This document shows, piece after piece, positions 739 to 50,960 of a stretch of 64,000 nt of DNA. The DNA lies in assembly GCA_028571685.1 (NCBI GenBank), contig CM053146.1:17891431-17955430 (forward strand), read 5' to 3'. Made by a program: the position numbers and the translations under genes. Numbering within the stretch: position 1 is the first letter of the stretch; each line of letters starts with the position of its first letter. The notes below the pieces were generated by a model, which saw only the letters and a program-made list of their open reading frames with translations, searched no databases and was not told the DNA's origin. This DNA comes from Heterohyrax brucei. Its lineage: Eukaryota > Chordata > Mammalia > Hyracoidea > Procaviidae.

Positions 739-880
739 GGGAGTACTTAGCACTGTGAAAACAGCACTTTCGCAGAAAGAAATCTACTTCTCTAAGACTG
801 GGAAACAGTGAACAGAGAATGTATGAGTTTCTCAAGTTTGGTAACAGATAGAAACAAGAGAAAGTACACAGTGATTCATC

Positions 881-5289: not shown

Positions 5290-5380
5290 ACAGTGATTCA
5301 TGTACCTAGAGAAGTTACACAAGTTTACACATAGAATTCCAAGTACAAGAAAATAAGAGAGACTTAGAAAACTGGTAAAA
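5290..5380 (+). repeat. Second 240-bp unit with the same deletion
   Basis: The sequence CCAAGTACAAG replaces CCAAGTATAAGTACAAG at about 5339-5349, two units after the first short unit. It shares TTCATGTACCTAG and GTTACACAAG with its counterpart near 23.5 kb. The same deletion twice in one block suggests that a short unit was copied within the block before the block itself was duplicated. Confidence 0.8.
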
Positions 5381-19277: not shown

Positions 19278-19420
19278 TAACAGATAGAAATAAGAGAAAG
19301 TACACAGTGATTCATCTACCTAGAAAAGTTACAGAGGTTTACACAGAGAAAACCAAGGATAAGTACAAGAAAATAAGAGAGACTTAGAAAACTGGTAAAA
19401 CCTACATTGTTGATAGAGTT

Positions 19421-27500: not shown

Positions 27501-27650
27501 GTAAAACCTACATTGTTGATAGAGTTGGGAGTACTTAGCACTGTAAAAACAGCACTTTCACAGAAAGAAATCTACTTCTCTAAGACTGGGAAACAGTGAA
27601 CAGAGAATGTATGAGTTTCTCAAGATTGGTAACAGATAGAAACAAGCGAA
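24575..27650 (+). repeat. Rearranged relative of the 21-unit block (copy 4)
   Basis: The block starts like the others (TTAGGACTGTG, then GTTTAAAGACTTGGG where copy 1 has GTTGAAAGACTTGGG). One unit was lost near 25.2-25.4 kb by fusion of two neighbours. The sequence then follows the 7.5-8.2 kb region at an offset of 17,944 bp and the 9.0-10.4 kb region at 17,206 bp, so three more units (738 bp) were removed between those parts. It ends where the divergent core begins. Confidence 0.72.
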
Positions 27651-28459
27651 AGAACACAGTGATTCATGTACCTAGAGAAGTTACAGAGGTTTACACAGAG
27701 AATTCCAAGTATAAGTACAAGAAAATAAGAGAGACTTAGAAAACGGGTAAAACCTCCATTGTTCATAGAGTTGGGAGTACTTAGCACTGTGAAAACCTCA
27801 CTTTCGTAAAGAGAAATCTACTTCTCTAAGACCGCGAAACAGTTAACAAAGAATGTGTGAGTTTCTCAAGATTGGTAACAGATAGAAACAAAAGAAAGTA
27901 CACAGTGGTTCATCTACCTACAGAAGTTAAAGAGGTTTACACAGAGATAACCAAGGATAAGTACAAGAAAATAAGAGAGACTTAGAAAACTGGTAAAACC
28001 TACATTGTTGATAGAGTTGGGAGTACTTAGCACTGTGAAAACAGCACTTTCGCAGAAAGAAATCTACTTCTCTAAGACCGAAAAACAGTGAATAGAGAAT
28101 GTATGACTTTCTCAAGACTGGTAACACATAGAAACAAGAGAAAGAACACAGTGATTCATCTACTTAGAGAAGTTACTGTGGTTTACACAGAGAATTCCAA
28201 GTATAAGTACAAGAAAATAAGAGAGACTTAGAAAACGGTCAATATCTACATTGTTCATAGAGTTTCGAGTACTTACTACTGTGAAAACAGCACTTTCGCA
28301 GAAAGAAATTTACTTCTCTAAGACCGCGAAACAGTGAATAGAGAATGTATGAGTTTCTCAAGATTGGTAACAGATAGAAACAGGAGAAATAACACAGTGA
28401 TTCATCTACCTAGAGAAGTTACTGTGGTTTACACAGACAATTCCAAGTATAAGTACAAG

Positions 28460-29010
28460 AAAATAAGAGTGACTTAGAAAGCCTGTAAAACCTACATTGT
28501 TGATAGAGTTGGGAATACTTATCACTGTGAAAACATCACTTTCTCAGAAAGAAATGTAATTCTCTAAGACCGCAAAACAGTGAATAGAGAATGTATGACT
28601 TTCTCAAGATTGGTAACAGATAGAAACAAGAGAAAGTACACAGTGATTCATCTACCTAGAGAAGTTACTGTTTTTTACACAGAGAATTCCAAGTATAAGT
28701 ACAAGAAAATAAGAGAGACTTAGAAAACTGGTAAAACCTACATTGTTGATAGAGTCGGGAGTACTTAGCACTGTGAAAACAGCACTTTCGCAGAAAGAAA
28801 TTTTCTCTAAGACCGCGAAACACTGAATAGAGATTGTTTGACTTTCTAAAGATTGGTAACAGATAGAAACAAGACAAAGTACACAGTGATTGATCTACAT
28901 ACAGAAGTTACAGAGCTTTACACAAGGAATTCCAAGTATAAGTACAAGAAAATAAGAGAGACTTAGAAAACTGGTAAAACCTACATTGTTGATAGAGTTG
29001 GGAGTACTTA
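28460..29010 (+). repeat. Segment copied at 33857-34407
   Basis: This shares AAGAGTGACTTAGAAAGCC, TTTCTCAGAAAGAAATGTA, TTACTGTTTTTTACAC, GAGTCGGGAG and GAAATTTTCTCTAAGACC with the segment 5,397 bp downstream. That step is 22 units minus 15 bp, so short units lie in between. GAAATTTTCTCTAAG is a 3-bp deletion relative to GAAATCTACTTCTCTAAG. The copies differ at a small number of positions. Confidence 0.75.
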
Positions 29011-30049
29011 GCACTGTGAAAACAGCACTTTCATACAAAGAAATCTACTTCTCTAAGACCGAAAAACAGTGAATAGAGAATGTATGAGTTTCTCAAGATT
29101 GGTAACAGATAGAAACAAGAGAAAGTACACAGTGATTGATGTACATACGGAAGTTACACAGGTTTACACAAGGAATTCCAATTATAAGTACAAGACAATA
29201 AGAGAGAATTAGAAAACTGGTAAAACCTACATTGTTGATAGAGTTCGGAGTACTTAGCACTCTGAAGACAGCACTTTCGCAGAAAGAAATGTACTCTAAC
29301 ACGGCGAAACAGTGAATACAGAATGTATGAGTTTCTCAAGATTGGTAACAGATAGAAACAAGAGAAAGAACACAGTGATTCATCTACCTAGAGAAGTTAC
29401 TGCGGTTTACACAGAGAATTCCAAGTATAAGTACAAGAAAATAAGAGAGACTTACAAAACTCGTAAAACCTACAGCGTTGATAGAGTTGGGAGTACTTAG
29501 CACTGTGAAAACATCACTTTCGCAGAAAGAAATCTACTTCTCTAAGACCGCAAAACAGTGATGAGAGAATGTATGACTTTCTCAAGATTGGTAACAGATA
29601 GAAACAAGAGAAAGTACACATTGATTCATCTACATACACAAGTTACAGAGGTTTACACAGAGAATTCCAAGGATAAGTACAAGAAAATAAGAGAGACTTA
29701 GAATACTGGTAAAACCTACATTGTTGATAGAGTTGGGAGTACTTAGCACTGTGAAAACTGCACTTTCGCAGATAGCAATCTACTTCTCTAAGACAACGAA
29801 ACAGTGAATAGAGAATGTATGACTTTCTCAAGATTGGTAACAGATAGAAACAAGACAAAGAACACAGTGATTCGTCTACTTAGAGAAATTACTGTGGTTT
29901 ACACAGAGATTTCCAAGTATAAGTACAAGAAAATAAGAGAGACTTAGAAAACGGTCAATATCTACATTGTTCATAGAGTTGGGAGTACTTAGCACTGTGA
30001 AAACAGCACTTTCGCAGAAAGCAATCTACTTCTCTAAAACCGCGAAACA

Positions 30050-30340
30050 GTGAATAGAGAATCTATGACTTTCCCAGGATTGGTAGCAGATAGAAACAAG
30101 AGAAAGTACATACTGATTGATCCACATACAGAAGATACACAGGTTTACACAAGGAATTCCAAGTATAAGTACAAGAAAATAGGAGAGACTTAGAAAACGG
30201 GTAAAACCTACATTGTTGATAGAGTCGGAGTACTTAGCACTGTGAAAACAGCACTTTCGCAGAAGGAAATTTTCTCTAAGACCGCGAAACAGTGAATAGA
30301 GTTTGTTTGACTTTCTCAAGATTGGTAACAGATAGAAACA
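30050..30340 (+). repeat. Segment copied at 36427-36717, with 245- and 243-bp units
   Basis: The run GAATCTATGACTTTCCCAGG, GGTAGCAGATAG, GATTGATCCACATAC, AAAATAGGAGAG, GAGTCGGAGTAC and GAAATTTTCTCTAAG is shared with the segment 6,377 bp downstream. GAGTCGGAGTAC lacks one base relative to GAGTTGGGAGTAC, and the following unit lacks three bases, so the local lengths are 245 and 243 bp. Confidence 0.75.
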
Positions 30341-30559
30341 AGACAAAGTACACAGTGATTGATCTCCATACAGAAGTTACAGAGGTTTACACAAGGAATT
30401 CCAAGTATAAGTACAAGAAAATAAGAGAGACTTAGAAAACTGGTAAAACCTACCTTGTTGATAGAGTTGGGAGTACTTAGCACTGTGAAAACAGCACTTT
30501 CGTACAAAGAAATCTACTTCTCTAAGACTGAAAAACAGTGAATAGAGAATGTATGAGTT

Positions 30560-31110
30560 TCTCAAGATTGGTAACAGATAGAAACAAGAGAAAGAACACA
30601 GTGATTCGTCTACCTAGAGAAGTTACTGTGGGTTACACAGAGATTTCCAAGTATAAGTACAAGAAAATAAGAGAGACTTAGAAAACTCGTAAAACCTACA
30701 TTGTTGATAGAGTTGGGAGTACTTAGCACTGTGAAAACATCACTTTCGTAGAGAGAAATCTACTTCTCTAAGACCGCGAAACAGTTAACAGAGAATGTGT
30801 GAGTTTCTCAACATTGGTAAAAGATAGAAACAAAAGAAAGTACACAGTGGTTCATCTACCTACAGAAGTTAAAGAGGTTTACACAGAGAATTCCAAGTAT
30901 AAGTACAAGAAATTAAGAGAGATTTAGAAAACTGGAAAAACCTACATTGTTGATAGAGTTGGGAGTAGTTAGCACTCTGAAGACAGCACTTTCGCAGAAA
31001 GAAATGTACTCTAACACGGCGAAACAGTGAATACAGAATGTATGAGTTTCTCAAGATTGGTAACAGATAGAAACAAGAGAAAGAACACAGTGATTCATCT
31101 ACCTAGAGAA
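30560..31110 (+). repeat. Segment copied at 34734-35284
   Basis: The run GATTCGTCTACC, TTACTGTGGGTTACACAGAG, CACTTTCGTAGAGAG, GAATGTGTGAG, TCAACATTGG and the 243-bp unit is shared with the segment 4,174 bp downstream (17 units minus 8 bp), and with the two tandem segments at 36.9-40.1 kb. This module is therefore present four times in the core. Confidence 0.75.
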
Positions 31111-31203
31111 GTTACTGTGGTTTACACAGAGAATTCCAAGTATAAGTACAAGAAAATAAGAGAGACTTAGAAAACTCGTAAAACCTACAGCGTTGATAGA
31201 GTT
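30961..31203 (+). repeat. 243-bp unit
   Basis: Measured from GGGAG to GGGAG this unit is 243 bp. The missing bases lie in GAAATGTACTCTAACACGG where other units read GAAATCTACTTCTCTAAGACCG. It also carries GCACTCTGAAGACAGC. The same 243-bp form recurs near 29.3, 35.2, 37.4 and 39.1 kb, marking a small family of copied segments within the core. Confidence 0.82.
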
Positions 31204-33415
31204 GGGAGTACTTAGCACTGTGAAAACATCACTTTCGCAGAAAGAAATCTACTTCTCTAAGACCGCAAAACAGTGAATAGAGAATGTTTGACTTTCTCAA
31301 GATTGGGAACAGATAGAAACAAGAGAAACAACACAGTGATACATCTACTTAGAGAAGTTACTGTGGTTTACACAGAGAATTCCAAGTATAAGTACAAGAA
31401 AATAAGAGAGACTTAGAAAACGGGTAAAACCTACATTGTTGATAGAGTTGGTAGTATTTAGCACTGTGAAAACAGCACTTTCGCACAAAGAAATCTACTT
31501 CTCTAAGACCGCGAAACAGTTTACAGAGAATGTATGAGTTTCTCAAGATTGGTAACAGATAGAAACAAGAGAAAGTACACAGTGATAGATGTACATACGG
31601 AAGTTACACAGGTTTACACTAGGAATTCCAAGTATAAGTACAAGACAATAAGAGAGAATTAGAAAACTGGTAAAACCTAAATTGTTGATAGAGTTGGGAG
31701 TACTTATCACTGTGTAAACAGCACTTTTGGAGAAAGCAATCTACTTCTCTAAGACCGAAAAACAGTGAATAGAGAATGTATGACTTTCTCAAGATTGGTA
31801 ACAGATAGAAACAAGAGAAAGAACACAGTGATTCATCTTCCTAGAGAAGTTACAGAGGTTTACACAGAGAATACCAAGTATAAGTAAAGAAAATAAGAGA
31901 GACTTAGAAAACTGGTAAAACCTACATTGTTGATAGAGTTGGGAGTTCTTAGCACTGTGAAAACAGCACTTTCGCAGAAAGAAATCTACTTCTCTAAGAC
32001 CGCAATACAGTGAATAGAGAATGTATCACTTTCTCAAGATTGGTAACAGATAGAAACAAGAGAAAGTACACATTGATTCATCTACATACACAAGTTACAG
32101 AGGTTTACACTAGAAATTCCAATTATAAGTACAAGAAAATAAGAGAGACTTAGAAAACTGGTAAAACCTACATTGTTGATAGAGTTGGGAGTACTTAGCA
32201 CTGTGAAAACAGCACTTTCGGAGAAAGAAATCTACTTCTCTAAGACCGAAAAACAGTGAATAGAGAATGTATGACTTTCTCAAGACTGGTAACACATAGA
32301 AACAAGAGAAAGAACACAGTGATTCATCTACTTAGATAAGTTACTGTGGTTTACACACAGAATTTCAAGTATAAGTACAAGAAAATAAGAGAGACTTAGA
32401 AACGGTCAATATCTACATTGTTCATAGAGTTGGGAGTACTTAGTACTGTGAAAACAGCACTTTCGCAGAAAGAAATTTACTTCTCTAAGACCGCGAAACA
32501 GTGAATAGAGAATGTATGAGTTCCTCAAGATTGGTAACAGATAGAAACAGGAGAAATAACACAGTGATTCATCTACCTAGAGAAGTTACTGTGGTTTACA
32601 CAGACAATTCCAAGTATAAGTACAAGGAAATTAGAGAGACTTAGAAAACTCATAAAACCTACATTGTTGATAGAGTTGGGAGTACGTAGCACTGTGAAAA
32701 CATTACTTTTGCAGAAAGAAATCTAGTTCTCTAAGACCGCAAAACAGTGAATAGAGAATGTATGACTTTCTCAAGATTGGGAACAGATAGAAAGAAGACA
32801 AAGAACACAGTTATACATCTACTTAGAGAAGTTACTGTGGTTTACACAGAGAATTCCAAGTATAAGTACAAGGAAATAAGAGAGACTTAGAAAACGTGTA
32901 AAACCTATATTATTGATATAGTTGGGAGTACTTAACACTGTGAAAACATCACTTTCGCAGAAAGAAATCTACTTCTCTAAGACCGCAAAACAGTGAATAG
33001 AGAATGTGTGACTTTCTCAAGATTGGTAACAGATAGAAACAAGAAAAAGAACACAGTGATTCATCTACCTAGAGAAGTTACAGAGGTTTAAACAGAGAAT
33101 TCCAAGTATAAGTACAAGAAAATAAGAGAGACTTAGAAAACGCGTAAAACCTACATTGTTGATAGAGTTGGGAGTATTTAACACTGTGAAAACAGCACTT
33201 TCGCAGAAAGAAATCTACCTCTGCAAGACTGCGAAACAGTTAATAGAGAATGGATGAGTTTCGCAAGATTGGTAACAGATAGAAACAAGAGAAAGTACAC
33301 AGTGATTGATCTAAATACAGAAGATACACAGGTTTACATAAGGAAGTCCAAGTATAAGTACAAGAAAATAAGAGAGAATTAGAAAACTGGTAAAACCTAC
33401 ATTGTTGATAGAGTT

Positions 33416-33661
33416 GGGAGTACCTAGCACTGTGAAAACAGCACTTTCGCAGAAAGAAATCTACTTCTCTAAGACCGCGAAACAGTGAATAGAGATTGTA
33501 TGACTTTCTCAAGATTGGTAACAGATAGAAACAAGAGAAAGAACACAGTGATTCAACTACCTAGAGAAGTTACAGAGGTCTAAACAGAGAATTCCAAGTA
33601 TAAGTACCAGAAAATAAGAGAGACTTAGAAAACGGGTAAAACCTACATTGTTCATAGAGTT
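33416..33661 (+). repeat. Example of class C unit (divergent core)
   Basis: The core units carry CTCTAAGACCGCGAAACAGTG at the diagnostic site where class A has TAAGTCCGTG and class B TAAGACTGGG, and often GTGAATAGAGAATG instead of GTGAACAGAGAATG. The rest of the unit aligns without gaps. Class C dominates from about 27.7 to 41.7 kb on both sides of the inversion and was not seen in the homogeneous parts of either arm. Neighbouring C units differ from one another at more positions than A or B neighbours do, suggesting an older or less often homogenised layer. Confidence 0.8.
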
Positions 33662-33856
33662 GGGAGTAATTAGCACTGTGAAAACAGCACTTTTTCAGAA
33701 AGAAATCTACTTCTCTAAGACCGCGAAACAGTGAACAGAGAATGTATGAATTTCTCAAGATTGATAACACATTGAAAGAAGAGAAAGTACACAGTGATTC
33801 ATATACCTAGAGAAGTTACAGAGGTTTACACAGAGAATTCCAAGTATAGGTACAAG

Positions 33857-34407
33857 AAAATAAGAGTGACTTAGAAAGCCAGTAAAACCTATATTGTTGA
33901 TAGAGTTGGGAGTACTTATCACTGTGAAAACATCACTTTCTCAGAAAGAAATGTAATTCTCTAAGACCGCAAAACAGTGAATAGAGAATGTATGACTTTC
34001 TCAAGATTGGTAACAGATAGAAACAAGAGAAAGTACACAGTGATTCATTTACCTAGAGAAGTTACTGTTTTTTACACAGAGAATTCCAAGTATAAGTACA
34101 AGAAAATAAGAGAGACTTAGAAAACTGGTAAAACCTACATTGTTGATAGAGTCGGGAGTACTTAGCACTGTGAAAACAGCACTTTCGCAGAAAGAAATTT
34201 TCTCTAAGACCGCGAAACAGTGAATAGAGATTGTTTGACTTTCTAAAGATTGGTAACAGATAGAAACAAGACAAAGTACACAGTGATTGATCTACATACA
34301 GAAGTTACAGAGGTTTACACAAGGAATTCCAAGTATAAGTACAAGAAAATAAGTGAGACTTAGAAAACTGGTAAAACCTATATTGTTGATAGAGTTGGGA
34401 GTACTTA
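33857..34407 (+). repeat. Segment copied from 28460-29010
   Basis: This is the partner copy of the segment 5,397 bp upstream, with the same private variants in the same order. Beyond about 34.4 kb the two diverge: this copy has CACTATGAAAAC while the other has TTTCATACAAAG. Confidence 0.75.
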
Positions 34408-34733
34408 GCACTATGAAAACAGCACTTTCGCAGAAAGAAATCCACTTCTCTAAGACCGAAAAACAGTGAATAGAGAATGTATGAGTTTCTCAAGATTGGT
34501 AACAGATAGAAACAAGAGAAAGTACGCAGTGATTGATGTACATATGGAAGTTACACAGGTTTACACAAGGAATTCCAAGTATAAGTACAAGACAATAAGA
34601 GAGAATTAGAAAACTGGTAAAACCTACATTGTTGATAGAGTTGGGAGTACTTATCACTGTGTAAACAGCACTTTCGGAGAAAGCAATCTACTTCTCTAAG
34701 ACCGCAAAACAGTGAATAGAGAATGTATGACTC

Positions 34734-35284
34734 TCTCAAGATTGGTAACAGATAGAAACAAGAGAAAGAACACAGTGATTCGTCTACCTAGAGAAGTTAC
34801 TGTGGGTTACACAGAGATTTCCAAGTATAAGTACAAGAAAATAAGAGAGACTTAGAAAACTCGTAAAACCTACATTGTTGATAGGGTTGGGAGTACTTAG
34901 CACTGTGAAAACATCACTTTCGTAGAGAGAAATCTACTTCTCTAAGACCGCGAACCAGTTAACAGAGAATGTGTGAGTTTCTCAACATTGGTAACAGATA
35001 GAAACAAAAGAAAGTACAAAGTGGTTCATCTACCTAGAGAAGTTAAAGAGGTTTACACAGAGAATTCCAAGTATAAGTACAAGAAAATAAGAGAGATTTA
35101 GAAAACTGGAAAAACCTACATTGTTGATAGAGTTGGGAGTAGTTAGCACTCTGAAGACAGCACTTTCGCAGAAAGAAATGTACTCTAACACGGCGAAACA
35201 GTGAATACAGAATGTATGAGTTTCTCAAGATTGGTAACAGATAGAAAGAAGAGAAAGAACACAGTGATTCATCTACCTAGAGAA
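34734..35284 (+). repeat. Segment copied from 30560-31110
   Basis: This is the partner copy at 4,174 bp, again containing the 243-bp unit. It carries single-base differences such as GATAGGGTTGGGAG, which is shared with the 37.08 kb copy but not with the 30.7 kb copy, so the 34.7 and 36.9 kb copies look the more closely related. Confidence 0.72.
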
Positions 35285-36939
35285 GTTACTGCGGTTTACA
35301 CAGAGAATTACAAGTATAAGTACAAGAAAATAAGAGAGACTTAGAAAACCGGTGAAAACTACATTGTTGAAAGAGTTGGGAGTAGTTAGTACTGTGAAAA
35401 CAGCACTTTCGTAGAAAGAATTCTACTTCTCTAAGACCGCGAAACAGTGAATAGAGAATGTGTGAGTTTCTCAAGATTGGTAACAGAAACAAGAGAAAGA
35501 ACACAGTGATTCATCTACCTAGGGAAGTTACTGTGGTTTACACAGAGAATTCCACGTATAAGTACAAGAAAATAAGAGAGACTTAGAAAAGTCGTAAAAC
35601 CTACACTGTTCATAGAGTTGGGAGTACTTAGCACTGTGAAAACATCACTTTTGCAGATAGAAATCTACTTCTCTAAGACCGCAAAACAGTGAATAGAGAA
35701 TGTATGACTTAATCAAGATTGGTAACAGATAGAAACAAGACAAAGAATACAGTAATACATCTACTTAGAGAAGATACTGTGGTTTACACAAAGAATTCCA
35801 AGTATAAGTACAAGAAAAAAAGAGAGACTTAGAAAAATGGTAAATCCTACATTGTTGATAGAGTTCGGAGTACTTAGCACTGTGAAAATATCACTTTCGC
35901 AGAATGAAATCTACTTCCGTAAGACCGCAAAACAGTGAATAGAGAATGTATGACTTTCTCAAGATTGGTAACACATAGAAACAAGAGAAAGAACACAGTG
36001 ATTCATCTGCTTAGAGAAGTTACTGTGGTTTACACAGAGAATTCCAAGTAGCAGTACAAGAAAATAAGAGAGACTTAGAAAACGGTCAATATCTATATTG
36101 TTCATAGAGATGGGAGTACTTAGCACTGTGAAAACAGCAGTTTCGCAGAAAGCAATCTACTTCTCTAAGACCGCGAAACAGTGAATACAGAATGCATGAG
36201 TTTCTCAAGATTGGTAACAGATAGAAACAAGAGAAAGAACACAGTGATTCATCTACCTAGAGAAGTTACAGAGGTTTACACAGAGAATTCCAAGTATAAG
36301 TACAAGAAAATAAGAGAGACTTAGAAAACTGGTAAAACCTACATTGTTGACACAGTTGGGAGTACTTAGCGCTGTGAAAACAGCACTTTCGCAGAAAGCA
36401 ATCTATTTCTCTAAGACAGCGAAACAGTGAATAGAGAATCTATGACTTTCCCAGGATTGGTAGCAGATAGAAACAAGAGAAAGTACATACTGATTGATCC
36501 ACATACAGAAGATACACAGGTTTACACAAGGAATTCCAAGTATAAGTACAAGAAAATAGGAGAGACTTAGAAAACGGGTAAAACCTACATTGTTGATAGA
36601 GTCGGAGTACTTAGCACTGTGAAAACAGCACTTTCGCAGAAGGAAATTTTCTCTAAGACCGCGAAACAGTGAATAGAGTTTGTTTGACTTTCTCAAGATT
36701 GGTAACAGATAGAAACAAGAGAAAGTACACAGTGATTGATCTACATAGAGAAGTTACAGAGGTTTACTCAAGGAATTCCAAGTATAAGTACAAGAAAAAA
36801 AGAGAGACTTAGAATACTGGTAAAACCTACATTGTTGATAGAGTTGGGAGTACTTAGCACTGTGAAAACAGCACTTTCGCAGATAGCAATCTACTTCTCT
36901 AAGACAGCGAAACAGTGAATAGAGAATGTATGACTTTCT

Positions 36940-38345
36940 CAAGATTGGTAACAGATAGAAACAAGAGAAAGAACACAGTGATTCGACTACCTAGAGAAGT
37001 TACTGTGGGTTACACAGAGATTTCCAAGTATAAGTACAAGAAAATAAGAGAGACTTAGAAAACTCGTAAAACCTACATTGTTGATAGGGTTGGGAGTACT
37101 TAGCACTGTGAAAACATCACTTTCGTAGAGAGAAATCTACTTCTCTAAGACCGCGAAACAGTTAACAGAGAATGTGTGAGTTTCTCAACATTGGTAACAG
37201 ATAGAAACAAAAGAAAGTACACAGTGGTTCATCTACCTACAGAAATTAAAGAGGTTTACACAGAGAATTCCAAGTATAAGTACAAGAAAATAAGAGAGAT
37301 TTAGAAAACTGGAAAAACCTACATTGTTGATAGAGTTGGGAGTACTTAGCACTCTGAAGACAGCACTTTCGCAGAAAGAAATGTACTCTAACACGGCGAA
37401 ACAGTGAATACAGAATGTATGAGTTTCTCAAGATTGGTAACAGATAGAAACAAGAGAAAGAACACAGTGATTCATCTACCTAGAGAAGTTACTGCGGTTT
37501 ACACAGAGAATTCCAAGTATAAGTACAAGAAAATAAGAGAGACTTAGAAAACTCGTAAAACCTACAGCGTTGATAGAGTTGGGAGTACTTAGCACTGTGA
37601 AAACAGCACTTTCGCACAAAGAAATCTACTTCTATAAGACCGCGAAACAGTTTACAGAGAATGTATGAGTTTCTCAAGATTGGTAACAGATAGAAATAAG
37701 AGAAAGTACACAGTGATTGATGTACATACGGAAGTTACACAGGTTTACACTAGGAATTCCAAGTATAAGTACAAGACAATAAGAGAGAATTAGAAAACTG
37801 GTAAAACCTACATTGTTGATAGAGTTGGGAGTACTTATCACTGTGTAAACAGCACTTTTGGAGAAAGCAATCTACTTCTCTAAGACCGCGAAACAGTGAA
37901 TAGAGAATGTATGACTTTCTCAAGATTGGTAACAGATAGAAACAAGAGAAAGAACACAGTGATTCATCTTCCTAGAGAAGTTACAGAGGTTTACACAGAG
38001 AATACCAAGTATAAGTACAAGAAAATAAGAGAGACTTAGAAAACTGGTAAAACCTACATTGTTGATAGAGTTGGGAGTTCTTAGCACTGTGAAAACAGCA
38101 CTTTCGCAGAAAGAAATCTACTTCTCTAAGACAGCAAAACAGTGAATAGAGAATGTATGACTTTCTCAAGATTGGTAACAGATAGAAACAAGAGAAAGTA
38201 CACATTGATTCATCTACATACACAAGTTACAGAGGTTTACACAAGAAATTCCAATTATAAGTACAAGAAATTAAGAGAGACTTAGAAAACTGGTAAAACC
38301 TACATTGTTGATAGAGTTGGGAGTACTTAGCACTGTGAAAACAGC
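36940..38345 (+). repeat. 7-unit step repeat in the core, copy 1
   Basis: About 1.4 kb here is repeated 1,719 bp downstream (7 x 246 minus 3, the 3 bp coming from the 243-bp unit). Markers in order are CTGTGGGTTACACAG, CACTTTCGTAGAGAG, GAAATTAAAGAGG, GCACTCTGAAGACAGC, CCTACAGCGTTGATAG, CAGTTTACAGAG, CACTGTGTAAACAGC, CATCTTCCTAG and ACAAGAAATTCCAATTATAAG. The copies diverge at the end, where this one has GCAGATAGCAATC and the second GCAGAAAGAAATC. Confidence 0.82.
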
Positions 38346-38659
38346 ACTTTCGCAGATAGCAATCTACTTCTCTAAGACAGCGAAACAGTGAATAGAGAAT
38401 GTATGACTTTCTCAAGATTGGTAACAGATAGAAACAAGAGAAAGAACACAATGATTCGTCTACCTAGAGAAGTTACTGTGGTTTACACAGAGATTTCCAA
38501 GTATAAGTACAAGAAAATAAGAGAGACTTAGAAAACGGTCAATATCTACATTGTTCATAGAGTTGGGAGTTCTTAGCACTGTGAAAACAGCACTTTCGTA
38601 CAAAGAAATCTACTTCTCTAAGACCGAAAAACAGTTAATAGAGAATGTATGAGTTTCTC

Positions 38660-40065
38660 AAGATTGGTAACAGATAGAAACAAGAGAAAGAACACAGTGA
38701 TTCGTCTACCTAGAGAAGTTACTGTGGGTTACACAGAGATTTCCAAGTATAAGTACAAGAAAATAAGAGAGACTTAGAAAACTCGTAAAACCTACATTGT
38801 TGATAGAGTTGGGAGTACTTAGCACTGTGAAAACATCACTTTCGTAGAGAGAAATCTACTTCTCTAAGACCGCGAAACAGTTAACAGAGAATGTGTGAGT
38901 TTCTCAACATTGGTAACAGATAGAAAGAAAAGAAAGTACACAGTGGTTCATCTACCTACCGAAATTAAAGAGGTTTACACAGAGAATTCCAAGTATAAGT
39001 ACAAGAAAATAAGAGAGATTTAGAAAACTGGAAAAACCTACATTGTTGATAGAGTTGGGAGTACTTAGCACTCTGAAGACAGCACTTTCGCAGAAAGAAA
39101 TGTACTCTAACACGGCGAAACAGTGAATACAGAATGTATGAGTTTCTCAAGATTGGTAACAGATAGAAACAAGAGAAAGAACACAGTGATTCATCTACCT
39201 AGAGAAGTTACTGCGGTTTACACAGAGAATTCCAAGTATAAGTACAAGGAAATAAGAGAGACTTAGAAAACTCGTAAAACCTACAGCGTTGATAGAGTTG
39301 GGAGTACTTAGCACTGTGAAAACAGCACTTTCGCACAAAGAAATCTACTTCTCTAAGACCGCGAAACAGTTTACAGAGAATGTATGAGTTTCTCAAGATT
39401 GGTAACAGATAGAAATAAGAGAAAGTACACAGTGATTGATGTACATACGGAAGTTACACAGGTTTACACTAGGAATTCCAAGTATAAGTACAAGACAATA
39501 AGAGAGAATTAGAAAACTGGTAAAACCTACATTGTTGATAGAGTTGGGAGTACTTATCACTGTGTAAACAGCACTTTTGGAGAAAGCAATCTACTTCTCT
39601 AAGATCGCGAAACAGTGAATAGAGAATGTATGACTTTCTCAAGATTGGTAACAGATAGAAACAAGAGAAATAACACAGTGATTCATCTTCCTAGAGAAGT
39701 TACAGAGGTTTACACAGAAAATACCAAGTATAAGTACAAGAAAATAAGAGAGACTTAGAAAACTGGTAAAACCTACATTGTTGATAGAGTTGGGAGTTCT
39801 TAGCACTGTGAAAACAGCACTTTCGCAGAAAGAAATCTACTTCTCTAAGACAGCAAAACAGTGAATAGAGAATGTATGACTTTCTCAAGATTGGTAACAG
39901 ATAGAAACAAGAGAAAGTACACATTGATTCATCTACATACACAAGTTACAGAGGTTTACACAAGAAATTCCAATTATAAGTACAAGAAATTAAGAGAGAC
40001 TTAGAAAACTGGTAAAACCTACATTGTTGATAGAATTGGGAGTACTTAGCACTGTGAAAACAGCA
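38660..40065 (+). repeat. 7-unit step repeat in the core, copy 2
   Basis: This is the second copy at an offset of 1,719 bp, with the same marker order and a few differences (GATCGCG near 39604, GAAATAACACAG near 39667). It ends about 300 bp before the inversion point, so the most recent block duplication of the core lies against the inversion. Confidence 0.82.
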
Positions 40066-40165
40066 CTTTCGCAGAAAGAAATCTACTTCTCTAAGACCGC
40101 GAAACAGTGAATAGAGAATGTATGAGTTTCTCAAGATTGGTAACAGATAGAAACAAGAGAAATAA

Positions 40166-40541
40166 CACAGTGATTCATCTACCTAGAGAAGTTACTGTGG
40201 TTTACACAGACAATTCCAAGTATAAGTACAAGGAAATTAGAGAGACTTAGAAAACTCGTAAAACCTACATTGTTGATAGAGTTGGGAGTACTTAGCACTG
40301 TGAAAACAGCACTTTCTCACAAAGAAATCTACTTCTCTAAGAACGCAAAACAGTGAATAGAGAATGTGTGAGACGTAGATTTCTTTCTGCGAAAGTGCTG
40401 TTTTCACAGTGCTAAGTACTCCCAACTCTATCAACAATGTAGGTTTTACCAGTTTTCTAAGTCTCTCTTATTTTCTTGTACTTATACTTGGAATTCTCTG
40501 TGTAAACCTCTGTAACTTCTCTAGGTAGATGAAGCACTGTG
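40166..40541. repeat. Inverted repeat centred on the strand switch
   Basis: Left arm 40166-40332 and right arm 40375-40541 are reverse complements with nine mismatches in 167 bp and no gap (paired positions sum to 80707). Pairing can continue inward: bases 40333-40337 against 40370-40374 match at four of five positions, leaving a loop of 32 nt at 40338-40369. It also continues outward, because both sides are the same satellite. A single strand could fold into a very long hairpin here. This is the only point in the window where unit orientation changes. Confidence 0.93.
40368..40376. other. Inversion breakpoint
   Basis: The left-oriented unit is intact up to GAATGTGTGAG (ending 40372) and should continue TTTCTC; instead the sequence reads ACGTAGATTTCTTTC, the inverted unit entered at a different point. 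The three bases GAG at 40370-40372 fit both partners (left GTGTGAGTTTC, right TTAGAGAAGTAG), with one substitution (C for A at 40374). This looks like a join at 3-4 nt of shared sequence. The two half-units meet at different unit positions, so about 30 bp are left unpaired in the centre. Confidence 0.85.
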
Positions 40542-41770
40542 TTCTTTCTCTTGTTTCTATCTGTTACCAACCTTGAGAAACTCATACATTCTCTATTCAC
40601 TGTTTCGCGGTCTTAGAGAAGCAGATTCCTATCTGCGAAAGTGATGTTTTCACAGTGCTAAGTACTCCCAACTCTATCCACAATGTAGGTTTTACCTGTT
40701 TTCTAAGTCTCTCTTATTTTCTTCGTTTTAATCTTGGAATTCTCTGTGTAAACCTCTGTAACTTCTCTAGGTAGAAAAATCACTGTGTTCTTTCTCTTGT
40801 TTCTATCTGTTACCAATCTTGAGAAACTGATACATTCTCTATTCATTGTTTCATGTTCTTAGAGAAGTAGATTTCTTTCTGGGAAAGTGCTGTTTTCACA
40901 GTGCTAAGTACTCCCAACTCTATCAACAATGTAGGTCTTACTCGTTTTCTGAGTCTCTCTTGTTTTCTTGTACTTATACTTGGAATTGTGTGTGTAAACC
41001 ACAGTGACTTCTCTAGGTAGATTAATCACTGTGTTCTTTCTCTTGTTTCTATCTGTTACCAATCTTGAGAAAGTCATACATTGTCTATTCACTGTTTCGC
41101 GGTCTTAGACTAGTAGATTTCTTTCCGCGAAAGTGATGTTTTCACAGTGCTAAGTACTCCCAACTCTATCAACAATGTAGGTTTTTACCTGTTTTCTAAG
41201 CCTCTCTTATTTTCTTGGTTTTACCCTTGGAATTCTCTGTGTAAACCTCTGTAACTTCTGTAGGTAGATGAATCACTGTGTTCTTTCTCTTGTTTCTATC
41301 TGTTACCAATCTTGAGAAACTCATACATTCTCTATTCACTGTTTCGCGGTCTTAGAGAAGTAGATTTCTTTCTGCGAAAGTGATGTTTGCACAGTGCTAA
41401 GTAGTCCCAACTCTATTAACAATGTAGGTTTTACCTGTTTTCTAAGTCTCTCTTATTTTCTTGGCTTTACCCTTGGAATTCTCTGTGTAATCGTCTGTAA
41501 CTTCTGTAGGTAGATGAATCACTGTGTATTTGTCTTGTTTCTATCTGTTACCAATCTTAAGAAAATCATACATTCTCTATTCACTGTTTCGCGGTCTTAG
41601 AGAAGTAAATTTCTTTCTGCGAAAGTACTCTTTTCACAGTGCTAAGTACTCCCAACTCTATCAACAATGTAGGTTTTACCAGTTTTCTAAGTCTCTCTTA
41701 TTTTCTTGTACTTATACTTGGAATTCTCTGTGTAAACGTCTGTAACTTTTCTAGGTAGATGAATCACTGT
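40375..41770 (-). repeat. Divergent class C core, right of the inversion
   Basis: In this short stretch the diagnostic site reads CTGTTTCGCGGTCTTAG, the reverse complement of class C, and units carry private changes (TTTTCTTCGTTTTAATC, TTCTTGGTTTTACCC, GTGATGTTTTCACAG). Divergence between neighbours resembles that of the left core. At about 41.77 kb the sequence changes to homogeneous A and B units (CTGTTTCACGGACTTAG, CTGTTTCCCAGTCTTAG). It is about nine times shorter than the left core. Confidence 0.8.
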
Positions 41771-44374
41771 GTACTTTCTCTTGTTTCTATGTGTTACCAA
41801 TCTTGAGAAACTCATACATTCTCTGTTCACTGTTTCACGGACTTAGAGAACTAAATTTATTTTGGCGAAAGTGCTGTTTTCACAGTGCTGAGTACTCCCA
41901 ACTCTATCAACAATGTAGGTTTTACCAGTTTTCTAAGTCTCTCTTATTTTCTTGTACTTATACTTGGAATTCTCTGTGTGAAAGTCTGTAACTTTTCTAG
42001 GTAGCTGAATCACTGTGTACTTTCTCTTGTTTCTATCTGTTACCAATCTTGAGAAACCCATACGTACTCTGTTCACTGTTTCCCAGTCTTAGAGAAGTAG
42101 ATTTCTTTCGGCGAAAGTGCTGTTTTCACAGTGCTAAGTACTCCCAACTCTATCCACAATGTAGGTTTTACCAGTTTTCTAAGTCTGTCTTATTTCCTTG
42201 TAGTTATGCTTGGAATTCTGTGTGTAAACCTCTGTAACTTTTCTAGGTAGATGAATCACTGTGTACTTTCTCTTGTTTCTATCTGTTACCAGTCTTGAGA
42301 AAGTCCTACGTACTCTGTTCCCTGTTTCCCAGTCTTAGAGAAGTAGATTTCTTTCGGCGAAAGTGGTGTTTTCACAGTGCTATGTACTCCCAACTCTATA
42401 AACATTGTAGGTTTTACAGTTTTCTAAGTCTCTCTGATTTTCTTGTACTTATACTTGGAATTCTCTGTGTAAACCTCTGTAACTTTTCTAGGTAGATGAA
42501 TCACTGTGTATTTTCTCTTGTTTGTATCTGTTACCAAACTTGAGAAACTCATACATTCTCTGTTCACTGTTTCTCGGACTTAGAGAACTAAATTTTCTTC
42601 GGCGAAAGTGCTGTTTTCACAGTGCTAAGTACTCCCAACTCTATCAACAATGTAGGTTTTACCAGTTTTCTAAGTCTCTCTTATTACGTTGTACTTATAC
42701 TTGGAATTCTCTGTGTAAACCACTGTAACTTCTCTAGGTAGCTGAATCACTGTGGACTTTCTCTTGTTTCTATCTGTTACCAATCTTGAGAAACTCATAC
42801 ATTCTCTGTTCACTGTTTCCTAGTCTTAGAGATGTAGATTTCTTTCGGCGAAAGTGCTGTTTTCACAGTGCTAAGTACTCCCAACTCTATCCACAATGTA
42901 GGTTTTACCAGTTTTCTAAGTCTCTCTTATTTTCTTGTACTTATACATGGAGTTCTCTGTGGAAACTTCTGTAACTTCTCTAGGTAGATGAATCACTGTG
43001 TACTTTCTCTTGTTTCTATCTGTTACCAATCTTGAGAAACTCATACATTCTCTGTTCTCTGTTTCCCAGTCTTAGAGAAGTAGATTTCTTTCGGCGAAAG
43101 TGCTGTTTTCACAGTGCTAAGTACTCCCAACTCTATCCACAATGTAGGTTTTACCAGTTTTCTAAGTCTCTCTTATTTTCTTGTACTTATACATGGAATT
43201 CTCTGTGTAAACTTCTGTAACTTCTATAGGTAGACGAATCACTGTGTACTTTCTCTTGTTTCTATCTGTTACCAATCTTGAGAAACTGATACATTCTCTG
43301 TTCACTGTTTCCCAGTCTTAGGGAAGTAGATTTCTTTCGGCGAAAGTGCTGTTTTCACAGTGCTATGTACTCCCAACTCTATCCACAATGTAGGTTTTAC
43401 CAGTTTTCTAAGTCTCTCTTATTTTCTTGTACTGATACATGGAATTCTCCGTGTAAACTTCTGTAATTTCTCTAGGTAGATGAATCACTGTGTACTTTCT
43501 CTTGTTTCTATCTGTTACCAATCTTGAGAAACTCATACATTCTCTGTTCACTGTTTCCCAGTCTTAGAGAAGTAGATTTCTTTCTGTGAAAGTGTTGTTT
43601 TCACAGTGCTAAGTACTCCCAACTGTATCCACAATGTAGGTTTTACCAGTTTTCTAAGTCTTTCTTATTTTCTTGTACTTAAACTTGGAATTCTCTTTGT
43701 AAACCTCTGTAACTTATCTAGGTAGATGAATCCCTGTGTACTTTCTCTTGTTTCTATCTGTTACCAATCTTGAGAACTCATATATTCTCTGCTCACTGTT
43801 TCACGGACTTAGAGAACTAAATTTCTTTCGGCGAAAGTGCTGTTTTCACAGTGCTAAGTACTCCCAACTCTATCAACAATGTAGGTTTTAGCAGTTTTCT
43901 AATTCTCTCTTATTTTCTTGTACTTATACTTGGAATTCTCTGTGTAAACCTCTGTAACTTTTCTAGGTAGATGAATCACTGTGTACTTTCTCTTGTTTCT
44001 ATCTGTTACCAATCTTGAGAAACTCATGCATTCTCTTCACTGTTTCACAGTCTTAGAGAAATAGATTTCTTTTTGCGAAAGTGCTGTTTTCACAGTGCTA
44101 AGTACTCCCAACTCTATCAACAATGTAGGTTTTACCAGTTTTCAAAGTCTGTCTTATTTTCTTGTACTTAAACTTAGAATTCTCTTTGTAAACCTCTGTA
44201 ACTCTTCTAGGTAGATGAATCACTGTGTACTTTCTCTTGTTTCTATCTGTTACCAATCTTGTGAAACTCATACATTGTCTGTTCACTGTTTCACGGACTT
44301 AGAGAACTAAATTTCTTTTGGCGAAAGTGCTGTTTCACAGTGCTAAGTACTCCCAACTCTATCAACAATGTAGG
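41771..44374 (-). repeat. Right-arm A/B units, proximal part
   Basis: Homogeneous inverted units start here. They include the AAATTTATTTTGGCG pattern, the CATACGTACTCTG units, a unit with AACATTGTAGGTTTTACAG (a deletion relative to GTTTTACCAG; partner near 60.1 kb), the TATAGGTAGACGAATC run (43.2-43.8 kb; partners near 48.1, 51.1, 57.5 and 61.9 kb) and a unit with GCTGTTTCACAGTG (1-bp deletion; partners near 58.6 and 62.8 kb). No full higher-order period closes within this stretch. Confidence 0.78.
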
Positions 44375-47300
44375 TTTTACCAGTTTTCTAAGTCTCTCTT
44401 TTTTTCTTGTATTTATACTTGGAATTCTCTGTGTAAACTTCTGTAACTTCTCTAGGTAGATGAATCACTGTGTACTTTCTCTTGTTTCTATCTGTTACCA
44501 ATCTTGAGAAACTCATACATTCTCTGTTCACTGTTTCTCAGTTTTAGAGAAGTAGATTTCTTTCTGCGAAAGTGCTGTTTTCACAGTGCTAAGTACTCCC
44601 AACTCTATCCACAATGTAGGTTTTACCAGTTTTCTAAGTCTCTCTTATTTTCTTCTACTTATACTTGGAATTCTCTGTGTAAACTTCTGTAACTTCTCTA
44701 GGTAGATGAATCACTGTGTACTTTCTCTTGTTTCTATCTGTTATCAATCTTGAGAAACTCATACATTCTCTGTTGACTGTTTCCCAGTCTTAGAGAAGTA
44801 GATTTCTTTCGGCGAAAGTGCTGTTTTCACAGTGCTAAGTACTACCACATCTATCAACAATGTAGGTTTTACCAGTTTTCTAAGTCTATCTTATTTTCTT
44901 GTACTAATACTTGGAATTCTCTGTGTAAGCCTCTGTAACTTTTCTAGGTAGATGAATCACTGTGTACTTTCTCTTGTTTCTATCTGTTACCAATCTTGAG
45001 AAACTCATACATTCTCTGTTCACTGTATCCCAGTCTTAGAGAAGTAGATTTCTCTCGGTGAAAGTGCTGTTTTCACAGTGCTAAGTACTCCCAATTCTAT
45101 CAACAATGTAGGTTTTATCAGATTTCTAAGTCTCTCTTATTTTCTTGTACTTATACTTGGAATTCTCTGTGTAAACCTCTGTAACTTTTCTAGGTAGATG
45201 AATCACTGTGTACTTTCTCTTGTTTCTATCTGTTACCAATCTTGAGAAACTCATACATTCTCTGTTCACTGTTTCCCAGTCTTAGAGAAGTAGATTTCTT
45301 TCTGCGAAAGTCCTGTTTTCACAGTGCTAAGTACTCCGAACTCTATCCACAATGTAGGTTTTACCAGTTTTCTAAGTCTTTCTTATATTCTTGTACTTAT
45401 ACTTGGAATTCTCTGTGTAAACCTCTGTAACTTTTCTAGGTAGATGAATCACTGTGTACTTTCTCTTGTTTCTATCTGTTACCAATCTTGAGAAACTCAT
45501 ACATTCTCTGTTCACTGTTTCCCAGTCTTAGAGAACTAAATTTCTTTCGGCGAAAGTACTGTTTTCACAGTGCTAAGTACTCCCAACTCTATAAATAGTG
45601 TACGTTTTACCAGTTTTCTAAGTCTCTCTTATTTTGTTGTACTTATACTTGGAATTCTCTTTGTAAACCTCTGTAACTTCTCTAGGTAGATGAATCACTG
45701 TGTACTTTCTCTTGTTTCTATCTGTTACCAATCTTGAGAAACTCATACATTCTCTGTTCACTGTTTCACGGACTTAGAGAACTAAATTTATTTTGGCGAA
45801 AGTGCTGTTTTCACAGTACTAAGTACTCCCAACTCTATCAACAATGTAGGTTTTACCAGTTTTCTAAATCTCTCTTATTTTCTTGTACTTATACTTGGAA
45901 TTCTCTGTGTAAACGTCTGTAACTTTTCTAGGTAGATGAATCACTGTGTACTTTCTCTTGTTTCTATCTGTTACCAATCTTGAGAAACTCATACATTCTC
46001 TGTTCACTGTTTCACGGACTTAGAGAACTAAATTTATTTTGGCGAAAGTGCTGTTTTCACAGTGCTGAGTACTCCCAACTCTATCAACAATGTAGGTTTT
46101 ACCAGTTTTCTAAGTCTCTCTTATTTTCTTGTACTTATACTTGGAATTCTCTGTGTAAAAGTCTGTAACTTTTCTAGGTAAATGAATCACTGTGTACTTT
46201 CTCTTGTTTCTATCTGTTACCAATCTTGAGAAACCCATACGTACTCTGTTCACTGTTTCCCAGTCTTAGAGAAGTAGATTTCTTTCGGCGAAAGTGCTGT
46301 TTTCACAGTGCTAAGTACTCCCAACTCTATCCACAATGTAGGTTTTACCAGTTTTCTAAGTCTGTCTTATTTCCTTGTACTTATACTTGGAATTCTCTGT
46401 GTAAACCACTGTAACTTCTCTAGGTAGCTGAATCACTGTGTACTTTCTCTTGTTTCTATCTGTTACCAATCTTGAGAAACTCATATATTCTCTGTTCACT
46501 GTTTCCTAGTCTTAGAGATGTAGATTTCTTTCTGCGAAAGTGCTGTTTTCACAGTGCTAAGTACTCCCAACTCTATCAACAATGTAGGTTTTACCAGTTT
46601 TCTAAGTCTCTCTGATTTTCTTGTACTTATACTTGGAATTCTCTGTGTAAACCTCTGTAACTTTTCTAGGTAGATGAATCACTGTGTACTTTCTCTTGGT
46701 TGTATCTGTTACCAATCTAGAGAAACTCATACATTCTCTGTTCACTGTTTCACAGACTTAGAGAACTAAATTTCTTTCGGCGAAAGTACTGTTTTCACAG
46801 TGCTAAGTACTCCCAACTCTATCAACAATGTAGGTTTTACCAGTTTTCTAATTCTCTCTTATTTTCTAATACTTACACTTGAAATTCTCTGTGTACACCT
46901 CTGTAACTTTTCTAGGTAGATGAATCATTGTGTACTTTCTCTTGTTTCTATCTGTTACCAATCTTGAGAAACTCATACATTCTCAGTTCACTGTTTCCCA
47001 GTCTTAGAGAAGTAGATTTCTTTCTGCGAAAGTGTTGTTTTCACAGTGCTAAGTACTCCCAACTCTATCCACAATGTAGGTTTTACCAGTATTCTAAGTC
47101 TCTCTTATTTTCTTATACTTATACATGGAATTCTCTGTGTATACTACTGTAATTTCTCTAGATTGATGAATCACTGTGTATTTTCTCTTGTTTCTATCTG
47201 TTACCAATCTTGAGAAACTGATACATTCTCTCTTCACTGTTTCACGGACTTACAGAACGAAATTTTTTTCGGCGAAAGTGCTGTTTTCACAGTGCTAAGT

Positions 47301-49060
47301 ACTCCGAACTCTATCCACAATGTAGGTTTTACCAGTTTTCTAAGTCTCTCTTATTTTCTTGTACTTATACATGGAATTCTCTGTGTAAACTTCTGTAATG
47401 TCTCTAGGTAGATGAATCACTGTGTACTTTCTCTTGTTTCTATCTGTTACCAATCTTGAGAAACTCATACATTCTCTGTTCACTGTATCCCAGTCTTAGA
47501 GAAGTAGATTTCTCTCGGCGAAAGTGCTGTTTTCACAGTGCTAAGTACTCCCAACTCTATCAACAATGTAGGTTTTACCAGATTTCTAAGTCTCTCTTAT
47601 TTTCTTGTACTTATACTTGGAATTCTCTGTGTAAACCTCTGTAACTTTTCTAGGTAGATGAATCACTGTGTACTTTCTCTTGTTTCTATCTGTTACCAAT
47701 CTTGAGAAACTCATACATTTTCTCTTCACTGTTTCACGGACTTAGAGAACGAAATTTCTTTCTGCGAAAGTGCTGTTTTCACAGTGCTAAGTACTCCCAA
47801 CTCTATCCACAATGTAGGTTTTACCAGTTTTCTAAGTCTCTCTTATTTTCTTGTACTTATACATGGAGTTCTCTGTGGAAACTTCTGTAACTTCTCTAGG
47901 TAGATGAATCACTGTGTACTTTCTCTTGTTTCTATCTGTTACCAATCTTGAGAAACTCATACATTCTCTGTTGACTGTTTCCCAGTCTTAGAGAAGTAGA
48001 TTTCTTTCCGCGAAAGTGCTGTTTTCACAGTGCTAAGTACTCCCAACTCTATCCACAATGTAGGTTTTACCAGTTTTCTAAGTCTCTCTTATTTTCTTGT
48101 ACTTATACATGGAATTCTCTGTGTAAACTTCTGTAACTTCTATAGGTAGACGAATCACTGTGTACTTTCTCTTGTTTCTATCTGTTACCAATCTTGAGAA
48201 ACTGATACATTCTCTGTTCACTGTTTCCCAGTCTTAGGGAAGTAGATTTCTTTCGGCGAAAGTGCTGTTTTCACAGTGCTATGTACTCCCAACTCTATCC
48301 ACAATGTAGGTTTTACCAGTTTTCTAAGTCTCTCTTATTTTCTTGTACTGATACATGGAATTCTCCGTGTAAACTTCTGTAACTTCTCTAGGTAGATGAA
48401 TCACTGTGTACTTTCTCTTGTTTCTATCTGTTACCAATCTTGAGAAACTCATACATTCTCTGTTCACTGTTTCCCAGTCTTAGAGAAGTAGATTTCTTTC
48501 TGTGAACGTGTTGTTTTCACAGTGCTAAGTACTCCCAACTGTATCCACAATGTAGGTTTTACCAGTTTTCTAAGTCTTTCTTATTTTCTTGTACTTAAAC
48601 TTGGAATTCTCTTTGTAAACCTCTGTAACTTATCTAGGTAGATGAATCCCTGTGTACTTTCTCTTGTTTCTATCTGTTACCAATCTTGAGAACTCATATA
48701 TTCTCTGCTCACTGTTTCACGGACTTAGAGAACTAAATTTCTTTCGGCGAAAGTGCTGTTTTCACAGTGCTAAGTACTCCCAACTCTATCAACAATGTAG
48801 GTTTTAGCAGTTTTCTAATTCTCTCTTATTTTCTTGTACTTATACTTGGAATTCTCTGTGTAAACCTCTGTAACTTTTCTAGGTCGATGAATCACTGTGT
48901 ACTTTCTCTTGTTTCTATCTGTTACCAATCTTGAGAAATTCATGCATTCTCTGTTCACTGTTTCACAGTCTTAGAGAAATAGATTTCTTTTTGCGAAAGT
49001 GCTGTTTTCACAGTGCTAAGTACTCCCAACTCTATCAACAATGTAGGTTTTACCAGTTTT
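44375..49060 (-). repeat. 4.7 kb segment copied at 53719-58404, copy 1
   Basis: This is collinear with a segment 9,344 bp downstream (38 units minus 4 bp) over about 4.7 kb. Shared markers include TTTTTTTCTTGTATTTATAC, CTACCACATCTATC, CTATAAATAGTGTACG, AAATTTATTTTGGCG, GTAAAAGTCTG, CCCATACGTACTC, TTGGTTGTATC, TCTAATACTTACACTTG, TCTAGATTGATG and GAGAACTCATATATTC. The copies diverge at about 49.06 kb, where the partner has CAAAGTCTGTC. Confidence 0.83.
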
Positions 49061-50960
49061 CTAAGTCTCTCTTATTTTCTTGTACTTATACTTGGAATTC
49101 TCTGTGTAAACCTCTGTAACTTCTCTAGGTAGATGAATCACTGTGTACTTTCTCTTGTTTCTATCTGTTACCAATCTTGAGAAACTCATACATTCTCTGT
49201 TCACTGTTTCTCAGTTTTAGAGAAGTAGATTTCTTTCTGCGAAAGTGCTGTTTTCACAGTGCTAAGTACTCCCAACTCTATCCACAATGTAGGTTTTAGC
49301 AGTTTTCTAAGTCTCTCTTATTTTCTTGAACTTATACTTGGAATTCTCTGTGTAAACTTCTGTAACTTCTCTAGGTAGATGAATCACTGTGTACTTTCTC
49401 TTGTTTGTATCTGTTACCAATCTTGAGAAACTCATACATTCTCTGTTCACTGTATCCCAGTCTTAGAGAAGTAGATTTCTCTCGGCGAAAGTGCTGTTTT
49501 CACAGTGCTAAGTACTCCCAACTCTATCAACAATGTAGGTTTTACCAGATTTCTAAGTCTCTCTTATTTTCTTGTACTTATACTTGGAATTCTCTGTGTA
49601 AACCTCTGTAACTTTTCTAGGTAGATGAATCACTGTGTACTTTCTCTTGTTTCTATCTGTTACCAATCTTGAGAAACTCATACATTGTCTCTTCACTGTT
49701 TCACGGACTTACAGAACGAAATTTTTTTCGGCGAAAGTGCTGTTTTCACAGTGCTAAGTACTCCGAACTCTATCCACAATGTAGGTTTTACCAGTTTTCT
49801 AAGTTTCTCTTATTTTCTTGTACTTATACATGGAATTCTCTGTGTAAACTTCTGTAACTTCTCTAGGTAGATGAATCACTGTGTACTTTCTCTTGTTTCT
49901 ATCTGTTACCAATCTTGAGAAACTCATACATTCTCTGTTCACTGTTTCCCAGTCTTAGAGAAGTAGATTTCTTTCGGCGAAAGTGCTGTTTTCACAGTGC
50001 TAAGTACTACCACATCTATCAACAATGTAGGTTTTACCAGTTTTCTAAGTCTATCTTATTTTCTTGTACTTATACTTGCAATTCTCTGTGTAAACCTCTG
50101 TAACTTTTCTAGGTAGATGAATCACTGTGTACTTTCTCTTGTTTCTATCTGTTACCAATCTTGAGAAACTCATACATTCTCTGTTCACTGTATCCCAGTC
50201 TTAGAGAAGTAGATTTCTCTCGGTGAAAGTGCTGTTTTCACAGTGCTAAGTACTCCCAACTCTATCAACAATGTAGGTTTTACCAGATTTCTAAGTCTCT
50301 CTGATTTTCCTGTACTTATACTTGGAATTCTCTGTGTAAACCTCTGTAACTTTTCTAGGTAGTGAATCACTGTGTATTTTCTCTTGTTTGTATCTGTTAC
50401 CAATCTTGAGAAACTCATACATTCTCTGTTCACTGTTTCTCGGACTTAGAGAACTAAATGTCTTTCGGCGAAAGTGCTGTTTTCACAGTGCTAAGTACTC
50501 CCAACTCTATCAACAATGTAGATTTTACCAGTTTTCTAAGTCTCTCTTATTACGTTGTACTTATACTTGGAATTCTCTGTATAAACCACTGTAACTTCTC
50601 TAGGTAGCTGAATCACTGTGTACTTTCTCTTGTTTCTATCTGTTACCAATCTTGAGAAACTCATACATTCTCTGTTCACTGTTTCCTAGTCTTAGAGATG
50701 TAGATTTCTTTCTGCGAAAGTGCTGTTTTCACAGTGCTAAGTACTCCCAACTCTATCAAAAGTGTAGGTTTTACCAGTTTTCTAAGTCTCTCTTTTTTTC
50801 TTGTATTTATACTTGGAATTCTCTGTGTAAACTTCTGTAACTTCTCTAGGTAGATGAATCACTGTGTACTTTCTCTTGTTTCTATCTGTTACCAATCTTG
50901 AGAAACTCATACATTCTCTGTTCACTGTTTCTCAGTTTTAGAGAAGTAGATTTCTTTCTG
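48011..50960 (-). repeat. 12-unit right-arm block, first tandem copy (2,950 bp)
   Basis: This is twelve units, two of which carry single-base deletions (GAGAACTCATA near 48690 and GGTAGTGAATC near 50361), giving 2,950 bp. All landmarks recur 2,950 bp later. Upstream of 48011 the two alignments differ (TTTCCGCG against TTTCTGCG). The left end of this block overlaps the 4.7 kb segment, so block duplication and segment copying are nested events. Confidence 0.87.

Follow-up and report, generated by a model that had tools for sequence, protein, structure and literature searches.

A strand switch within a 246-bp satellite array of Heterohyrax brucei, present in two diverged copies and bordered by orphan monomers

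The window, by which we mean the whole 64,000-nucleotide stretch of DNA analysed here (contig C7:17891431-17955430 of a 3.488-Gb assembly in 62 contigs), consists throughout of one satellite repeated in tandem, whose unit measures 246 bp (92% matches at this period in Tandem Repeats Finder). As an earlier note on this sequence had described, the array runs one way for about 40 kb and then flips: the monomers are forward to 40369 and reversed from 40370 (Table 1). The two arrays adjoin at these positions without a gap, and both GC skew and AT skew change sign at the switch. The same satellite thus lies in opposite orientation on the two sides of a continuous sequence, which is the arrangement that defines a strand-switch junction. 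The GAG at the join, previously singled out as a microhomology, is indeed common to both parent sequences when these are read directly; since 6.2% of random joins of the satellite consensus share at least 3 bp, it is weak evidence. A search of positions 39000-42000 returned no Rfam match at gathering score. Elsewhere in the assembly, a globin exon matched many haemoglobin beta chains at similar scores, which suits a placental mammal.

Table 1. Coordinates of the features of the window (positions are those of the 64,000-nucleotide stretch)
Feature	Position	Strand	Remarks
Forward 246-bp satellite array	1..40369	+	about 164 monomers; Tandem Repeats Finder, forward reach to 40372
Forward-side island of diverged monomers (classes B, H, E, G, one C)	27770..40369	+	clustering; left edge approximate
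Left arm of inverted pair	40100..40337	+	226/238 paired
Patch where the two junction copies show 9 differences	40298..40347	+	flanked by 246 identical bases (40052-40297) and, on the right, by 1.25% divergence
Loop between arms	40338-40369		32 nt
Junction signature, 22 bases spanning the join	40362..40383	+	includes the GAG of both parents; exact pattern search
Reversed 246-bp satellite array	40370..64000	-	about 96 monomers
Right arm of inverted pair	40370..40607	-	226/238 paired, 95% complementary
Five orphan monomers past the join (classes H, D, H, D, D)	40427..41656	-	nearest same-block relative 93.1-96.3%

The description of the flip as a single strand switch holds within the window only: along C7, point samples between 8 and 18.35 Mb revealed at least seven direction changes, a count that shorter inversions between samples would escape. 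The satellite was forward at 8.0 and 8.5 Mb, reversed at 9-11 Mb, forward at 11.5-12.75 Mb, reversed at 13.0-13.56 Mb, forward at 13.575-15.018 Mb, reversed to 17.5812 Mb, forward to 17.9318 Mb and reversed to 18.35 Mb, with every sample from 40370 of the window out to this last position in the reversed orientation. Of these changes, only those at 15.018 and 17.932 Mb were followed base by base through the join. Where the orientation passes from reversed to forward at 17.58 Mb there stand exactly 200 N (C7:17581231-17581430), which by convention have the look of a scaffold gap, so this direction change is no sequenced junction. Near this run, reversed stretches carry single-base losses relative to the consensus and resemble a low-quality contig end.

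Satellite anchors were absent from the C7 samples at or below 7.75 Mb (8 samples) and from those at 18.8, 19.5 and 20.5 Mb. The edge of the array, which is diverged, was found at 18.4 Mb, where (C7:18400000-18402000) diverged forward monomers (five 246-base pieces, 77-94% identical to the nearest monomer) stand beside non-satellite sequence. Matches to the satellite were present on at least 11 contigs (C2, C3, C4, C7, C11, C13, C16, C18, C20, C22 and C25). On C3, samples were forward at 20.5-22.0 Mb, reversed at 24.0-26.8 Mb and forward again at 26.9 Mb, and two 1-kb samples (C3:26000000-26000999 and 28000000-28000999) were all N, as expected of large gaps or of sequence withheld.

The junction occurs twice on C7. 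A 376-base query of the junction region matched over its full length, among the best 40 of 2464 candidates, at itself and at C7:15018188-15018563 on the same strand, with 97% identity; we refer to the junction in the window as copy A and to this second one as copy B. In the 3.49-Gb assembly the 22-base join was matched exactly at two sites, which lie on the same strand of C7, 2.91 Mb apart, and at one to two mismatches no further site appeared among the matches listed. As a control, the pattern read backwards gave two matches at up to two mismatches, so that weak matches to the 22-mer are uninformative and exact ones informative.

We compared the copies over 154 kb surrounding copy A, which take in the window, and 110 kb surrounding copy B; neither stretch contains N. 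At a word size of 60 bases, Megablast between the two blocks returned one row, and monomer matrices over 1069 of the 1070 monomers were used in its place. The monomer left out, a 412-bp unit at C7:15001939 in the copy B block, was the sole one outside 230-260 bp. Direct runs between copies A and B adjoin the join on both sides (12 monomers at 0.993 on the left, 11 at 0.991 on the right) and recur farther out (13 monomers at 0.989 on the left, 20 at 0.991 on the right). These runs are broken by whole-monomer gains and losses, and several of those near 99% match more than one place, which counts against the explanation we favour below; with runs interrupted and matching elsewhere in this way, the outer limits of the shared region are not fixable. 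Right of the join, 16 differences separate the copies over 40348-41629 (1.25%), and the denser patch at the end of the left arm (Table 1) may be the scar of a conversion or monomer exchange. Copies A and B would thus descend from one join and have changed separately since. At rates of 1-2 x 10^-9 substitutions per site per year, their divergence would correspond to about 3-6 million years if they are paralogues.

Hierarchical clustering sorted the 1069 monomers into eight classes. None of the 1069 contains the core of the CENP-B box, every one being at least two mismatches from its nine core bases; by this motif the satellite is not a CENP-B-box centromeric satellite. No clear short higher-order repeat was seen in the main monomer class. 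The forward side of the window holds the main class and, from about 27770 up to the join, the forward island; past the join come monomers of classes H, D, H, D and D, and then main-class monomers. In copy B the reversed side likewise begins with HDHDD, and the forward island is interspersed with main-class monomers farther out. The suggestion that the switch marks a rearrangement or a boundary between subarrays is supported in the form of a rearrangement inside a distinct subarray, in that the join lies within an island of diverged monomers and is present in two copies.

The five monomers past the join lack close relatives in their own block. In copy A their nearest own-block relatives reach 0.963, 0.931, 0.931, 0.943 and 0.935 (block median 0.996), and in copy B 0.959, 0.935, 0.927, 0.947 and 0.947, with a sixth monomer at 0.931. 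As a five-monomer window they have the lowest homogenisation rank in copy A (1 of 621) and rank 2 of 440 in copy B, where rank 1 is the same window shifted by one. Between the copies these orphans are 98.4-99.2% identical. A genome search with the last four (983 bases) recovered, among the best 39 of 5850 candidates, the query itself, copy B at 99% and then nothing above 92%; the best match after copy B in this list lay where the array ends on its right side, at 18.337-18.386 Mb. On the forward side, the first 14 monomers from the join have close relatives (0.967-1.0), and such a one-sided orphan zone is not what a simple homogenisation barrier predicts. Orphan-like monomers were also found at 17.925-17.927 Mb, at 17.980 Mb and at the border of a further island at 17.9965 Mb. 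As copies A and B are not independent, the association of switch and orphans rests on one event.

This further island, which starts at 17.9965 Mb, consists of the same diverged classes in reversed orientation. Parts of three stretches lying no farther than 18.096 Mb resemble the forward island in inverted order, mostly at 0.97-0.99, and reversed sequence at 17.997-18.015 Mb forms inverted runs of 4-7 monomers at 0.98-0.99 with the forward island, mainly that of copy B; sequence like the left arm is therefore present in reverse at least 65 kb to the right. Within the reversed island (C7:17996500-18015430) we observed a higher-order periodicity of 14 monomers: identity was 0.948 for a lag of 14 and 0.930 for a lag of 28, the median being 0.900. 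Separately, reversed main-class monomers at C7:17985000-17991500 form inverted runs of 3-5 monomers (0.965-0.986) with forward main-class monomers at 17.87-17.92 Mb in many places.

The two copies could be haplotypes of one locus that were falsely placed in tandem in the scaffold, a serious possibility that we lean only slightly against and that is compatible with the other steps of the explanation we favour below. The 200-N gap lies between the copies, and the near-identity of their orphans is what two alleles might show. Set against this, a divergence of 1.25% is high for alleles, and the reversed stretch as sampled continues for about 2.56 Mb after copy B (to the gap) and for about 0.45 Mb after copy A (to the edge of the array), although neither the divergence nor the stretch lengths are decisive in fast-changing satellite DNA.

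The sequences beside the join were also examined as an inverted repeat. Their pairing without gaps around a 32-nt loop was confirmed; over 167-bp arms (40171-40337 and 40370-40536), for which nine mismatches had been given, we count 10 (157/167 paired), and arms of 238 bp contain 12. Beyond these arms, ungapped pairing continues to about 0.83 kb at lower identity. Folded as single-stranded DNA, the arm region reached -243.4 kcal/mol (z -42). The earlier wording, a near-perfect giant inverted repeat, does not fit the flanks of the join, where mirror identity is lost past the first monomer pair. This was apparent when 258 monomers cut from the window were compared all against all: forward and reversed monomers have a mean identity of 0.919 (95th percentile 0.958), while the mirror register averaged 0.902 over 60 pairs and 12 other offsets (-6 to +6) gave 0.902-0.905. 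Successive mirror pairs from the join had identities of 0.94, 0.88, 0.90 and 0.89, so the first pair alone stands out. No inverted collinear run of at least three monomers at 0.96 links the 20 kb on one side of the join to the 20 kb on the other, whether in copy A or in copy B.

How unusual each arm is was gauged against other sites with its partner excluded. The right arm is matched at least as well by 32 of 155 forward sites in the window at 238 bp and by 88 of 160 at 167 bp. For the left arm, no reversed site in the window matches as well at 238 bp (0/91) and four do at 167 bp (4/92); farther right, at 17.955-18.015 Mb, where the satellite is reversed, its partner is equalled or exceeded at 5 of 229 sites (238 bp) and at 15 of 232 (167 bp). 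The right arm is ordinary, and the local excess is confined to one monomer's length, with no giant mirror repeat. The left arm, which belongs to a diverged class, is best paired next door within the window because both sides of the join hold such monomers. Monomers of this satellite family placed in opposite orientation account for most of the inverted repeat.

A local fold-back, in which template switching or sister-chromatid fusion copied the neighbouring array in reverse, had been put forward for the junction, and we consider it improbable. The pairing of the 238-bp arms around a short loop, the class H monomers on both sides of the join and the lack of any other equally good reversed site for the 238-bp left arm in the window would all fit such an event, the last of these also if the fold-back were very old. 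A recent fold-back or palindrome should possess in-register mirror arms over kilobases, which are missing here. It is refuted by a mirror identity no higher than the off-register values and by the absence of inverted runs within 20 kb, and the orphan monomers, too, are without mirror partners across the join.

The reading we favour, and regard as likely, is that of an old strand-switch junction in a multi-megabase array, produced by one breakpoint and later present in two copies, whose reversed-side monomers escaped homogenisation. The direction switch itself looks real and may well be inherited. The breakpoint would have arisen once, either by joining, with microhomology of at most 3 bp, or by template switching between two widely separated parts of the array, probably with involvement of the diverged B/H/E/G subfamily, whose members run forward next to the join and in reverse from 17.9965 Mb onward. 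The junction region would later have been duplicated along the chromosome, unless the copies are haplotypes set end to end in the scaffold. In unequal crossing over, an exchange in register cannot run across a change of orientation; because neither in-register unequal exchange nor conversion can cross the switch, monomers on its reversed side may have escaped homogenisation and drifted into orphans. A search for the reciprocal junction of a balanced inversion with exact anchors, which miss variant monomers, gave 0 matches, so that a template switch copying a reversed island is equally plausible. We read the junction as an old one, left by an inversion or a template switch and protected from homogenisation since; features of this kind are known.

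It is far less probable that the junction is a selected, functional inversion site acting as a landmark for chromatin or recombination. Such a role is suggested in a study of Tribolium madens, which describes strand switches with diverged, conserved units and presents macro-dyad symmetries of satellite arrays as documented in Tribolium only (PMC13081366). As in the Tribolium work, the switches here lie within an array, the units beside them are diverged, and these units are similar between copies of the site. The Tribolium sites are described there as numbering in the thousands, with dyads of a few to tens of kilobases and unrelated sequence, whereas we found two copies of the join, lying between one-orientation blocks of at least hundreds of kilobases as sampled. 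This resemblance and the strong single-strand folding of the arm region speak for such a role. Common descent, however, would account for the likeness of our two copies, and any inverted satellite would fold as strongly as the arm region does. Function is unnecessary to explain the junction and its orphans. The least probable account is an assembly or sequencing artefact, whether a chimeric or fold-back (hairpin) read or a wrong joining at the flip: the opposite border of the forward block is the 200-N run, so at least one direction change is an unsequenced join, but the present join is gap-free and occurs in a second, diverged copy, and the missing mirror collinearity contradicts a fold-back read, which would give near-identical arms over kilobases and not 0.90.

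Orientation changes are familiar from human satellites. Non-alpha satellites of human pericentromeres such as HSat and beta satellite, unrelated repeats that form large arrays in which orientation changes several times, are a possible counterpart. Alpha satellite, with a unit of 171 bp, is likewise another satellite. A review of human centromeres (PMC9549924) describes inversions as rare in live arrays and commoner in divergent ones, in which structural disorder as a whole is greater, and an orientation change inside a pericentromeric array resembles what is reported here; the case on C7 differs in the number of direction changes sampled on a single contig, at least seven, some of which were not crossed in sequence. 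Among titles and the beginnings of abstracts we found no earlier description of this satellite, which is no proof of absence; for a 246-bp satellite only work on Chlamydomonas surfaced in such records, and the monomer sequence was not found in the text available. The accessible portions of PMC12597820 and PMC12058530 contain nothing on strand switches within satellite arrays.

How the units of a satellite stay alike, and what disrupts this, is a long-standing question. It is conceivable, if somewhat doubtful, that a strand switch acts as a barrier to homogenisation which leaves the adjoining monomers as lasting orphans, and that mammalian arrays contain conserved inversion sites like those suggested for Tribolium. 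Were this so, strand switches would provide landmarks that can be dated in arrays without other features. The present join, traceable in two copies that have diverged and bordered on one side by monomers not shared elsewhere, is a marker for ordering the events of an array: its formation would be the earliest, followed by the copying of the surrounding region (or the split of haplotypes) and after that by the local gain, loss and conversion of monomers. If other strand switches also prove to have orphans, changes of orientation would be shown to halt homogenisation.
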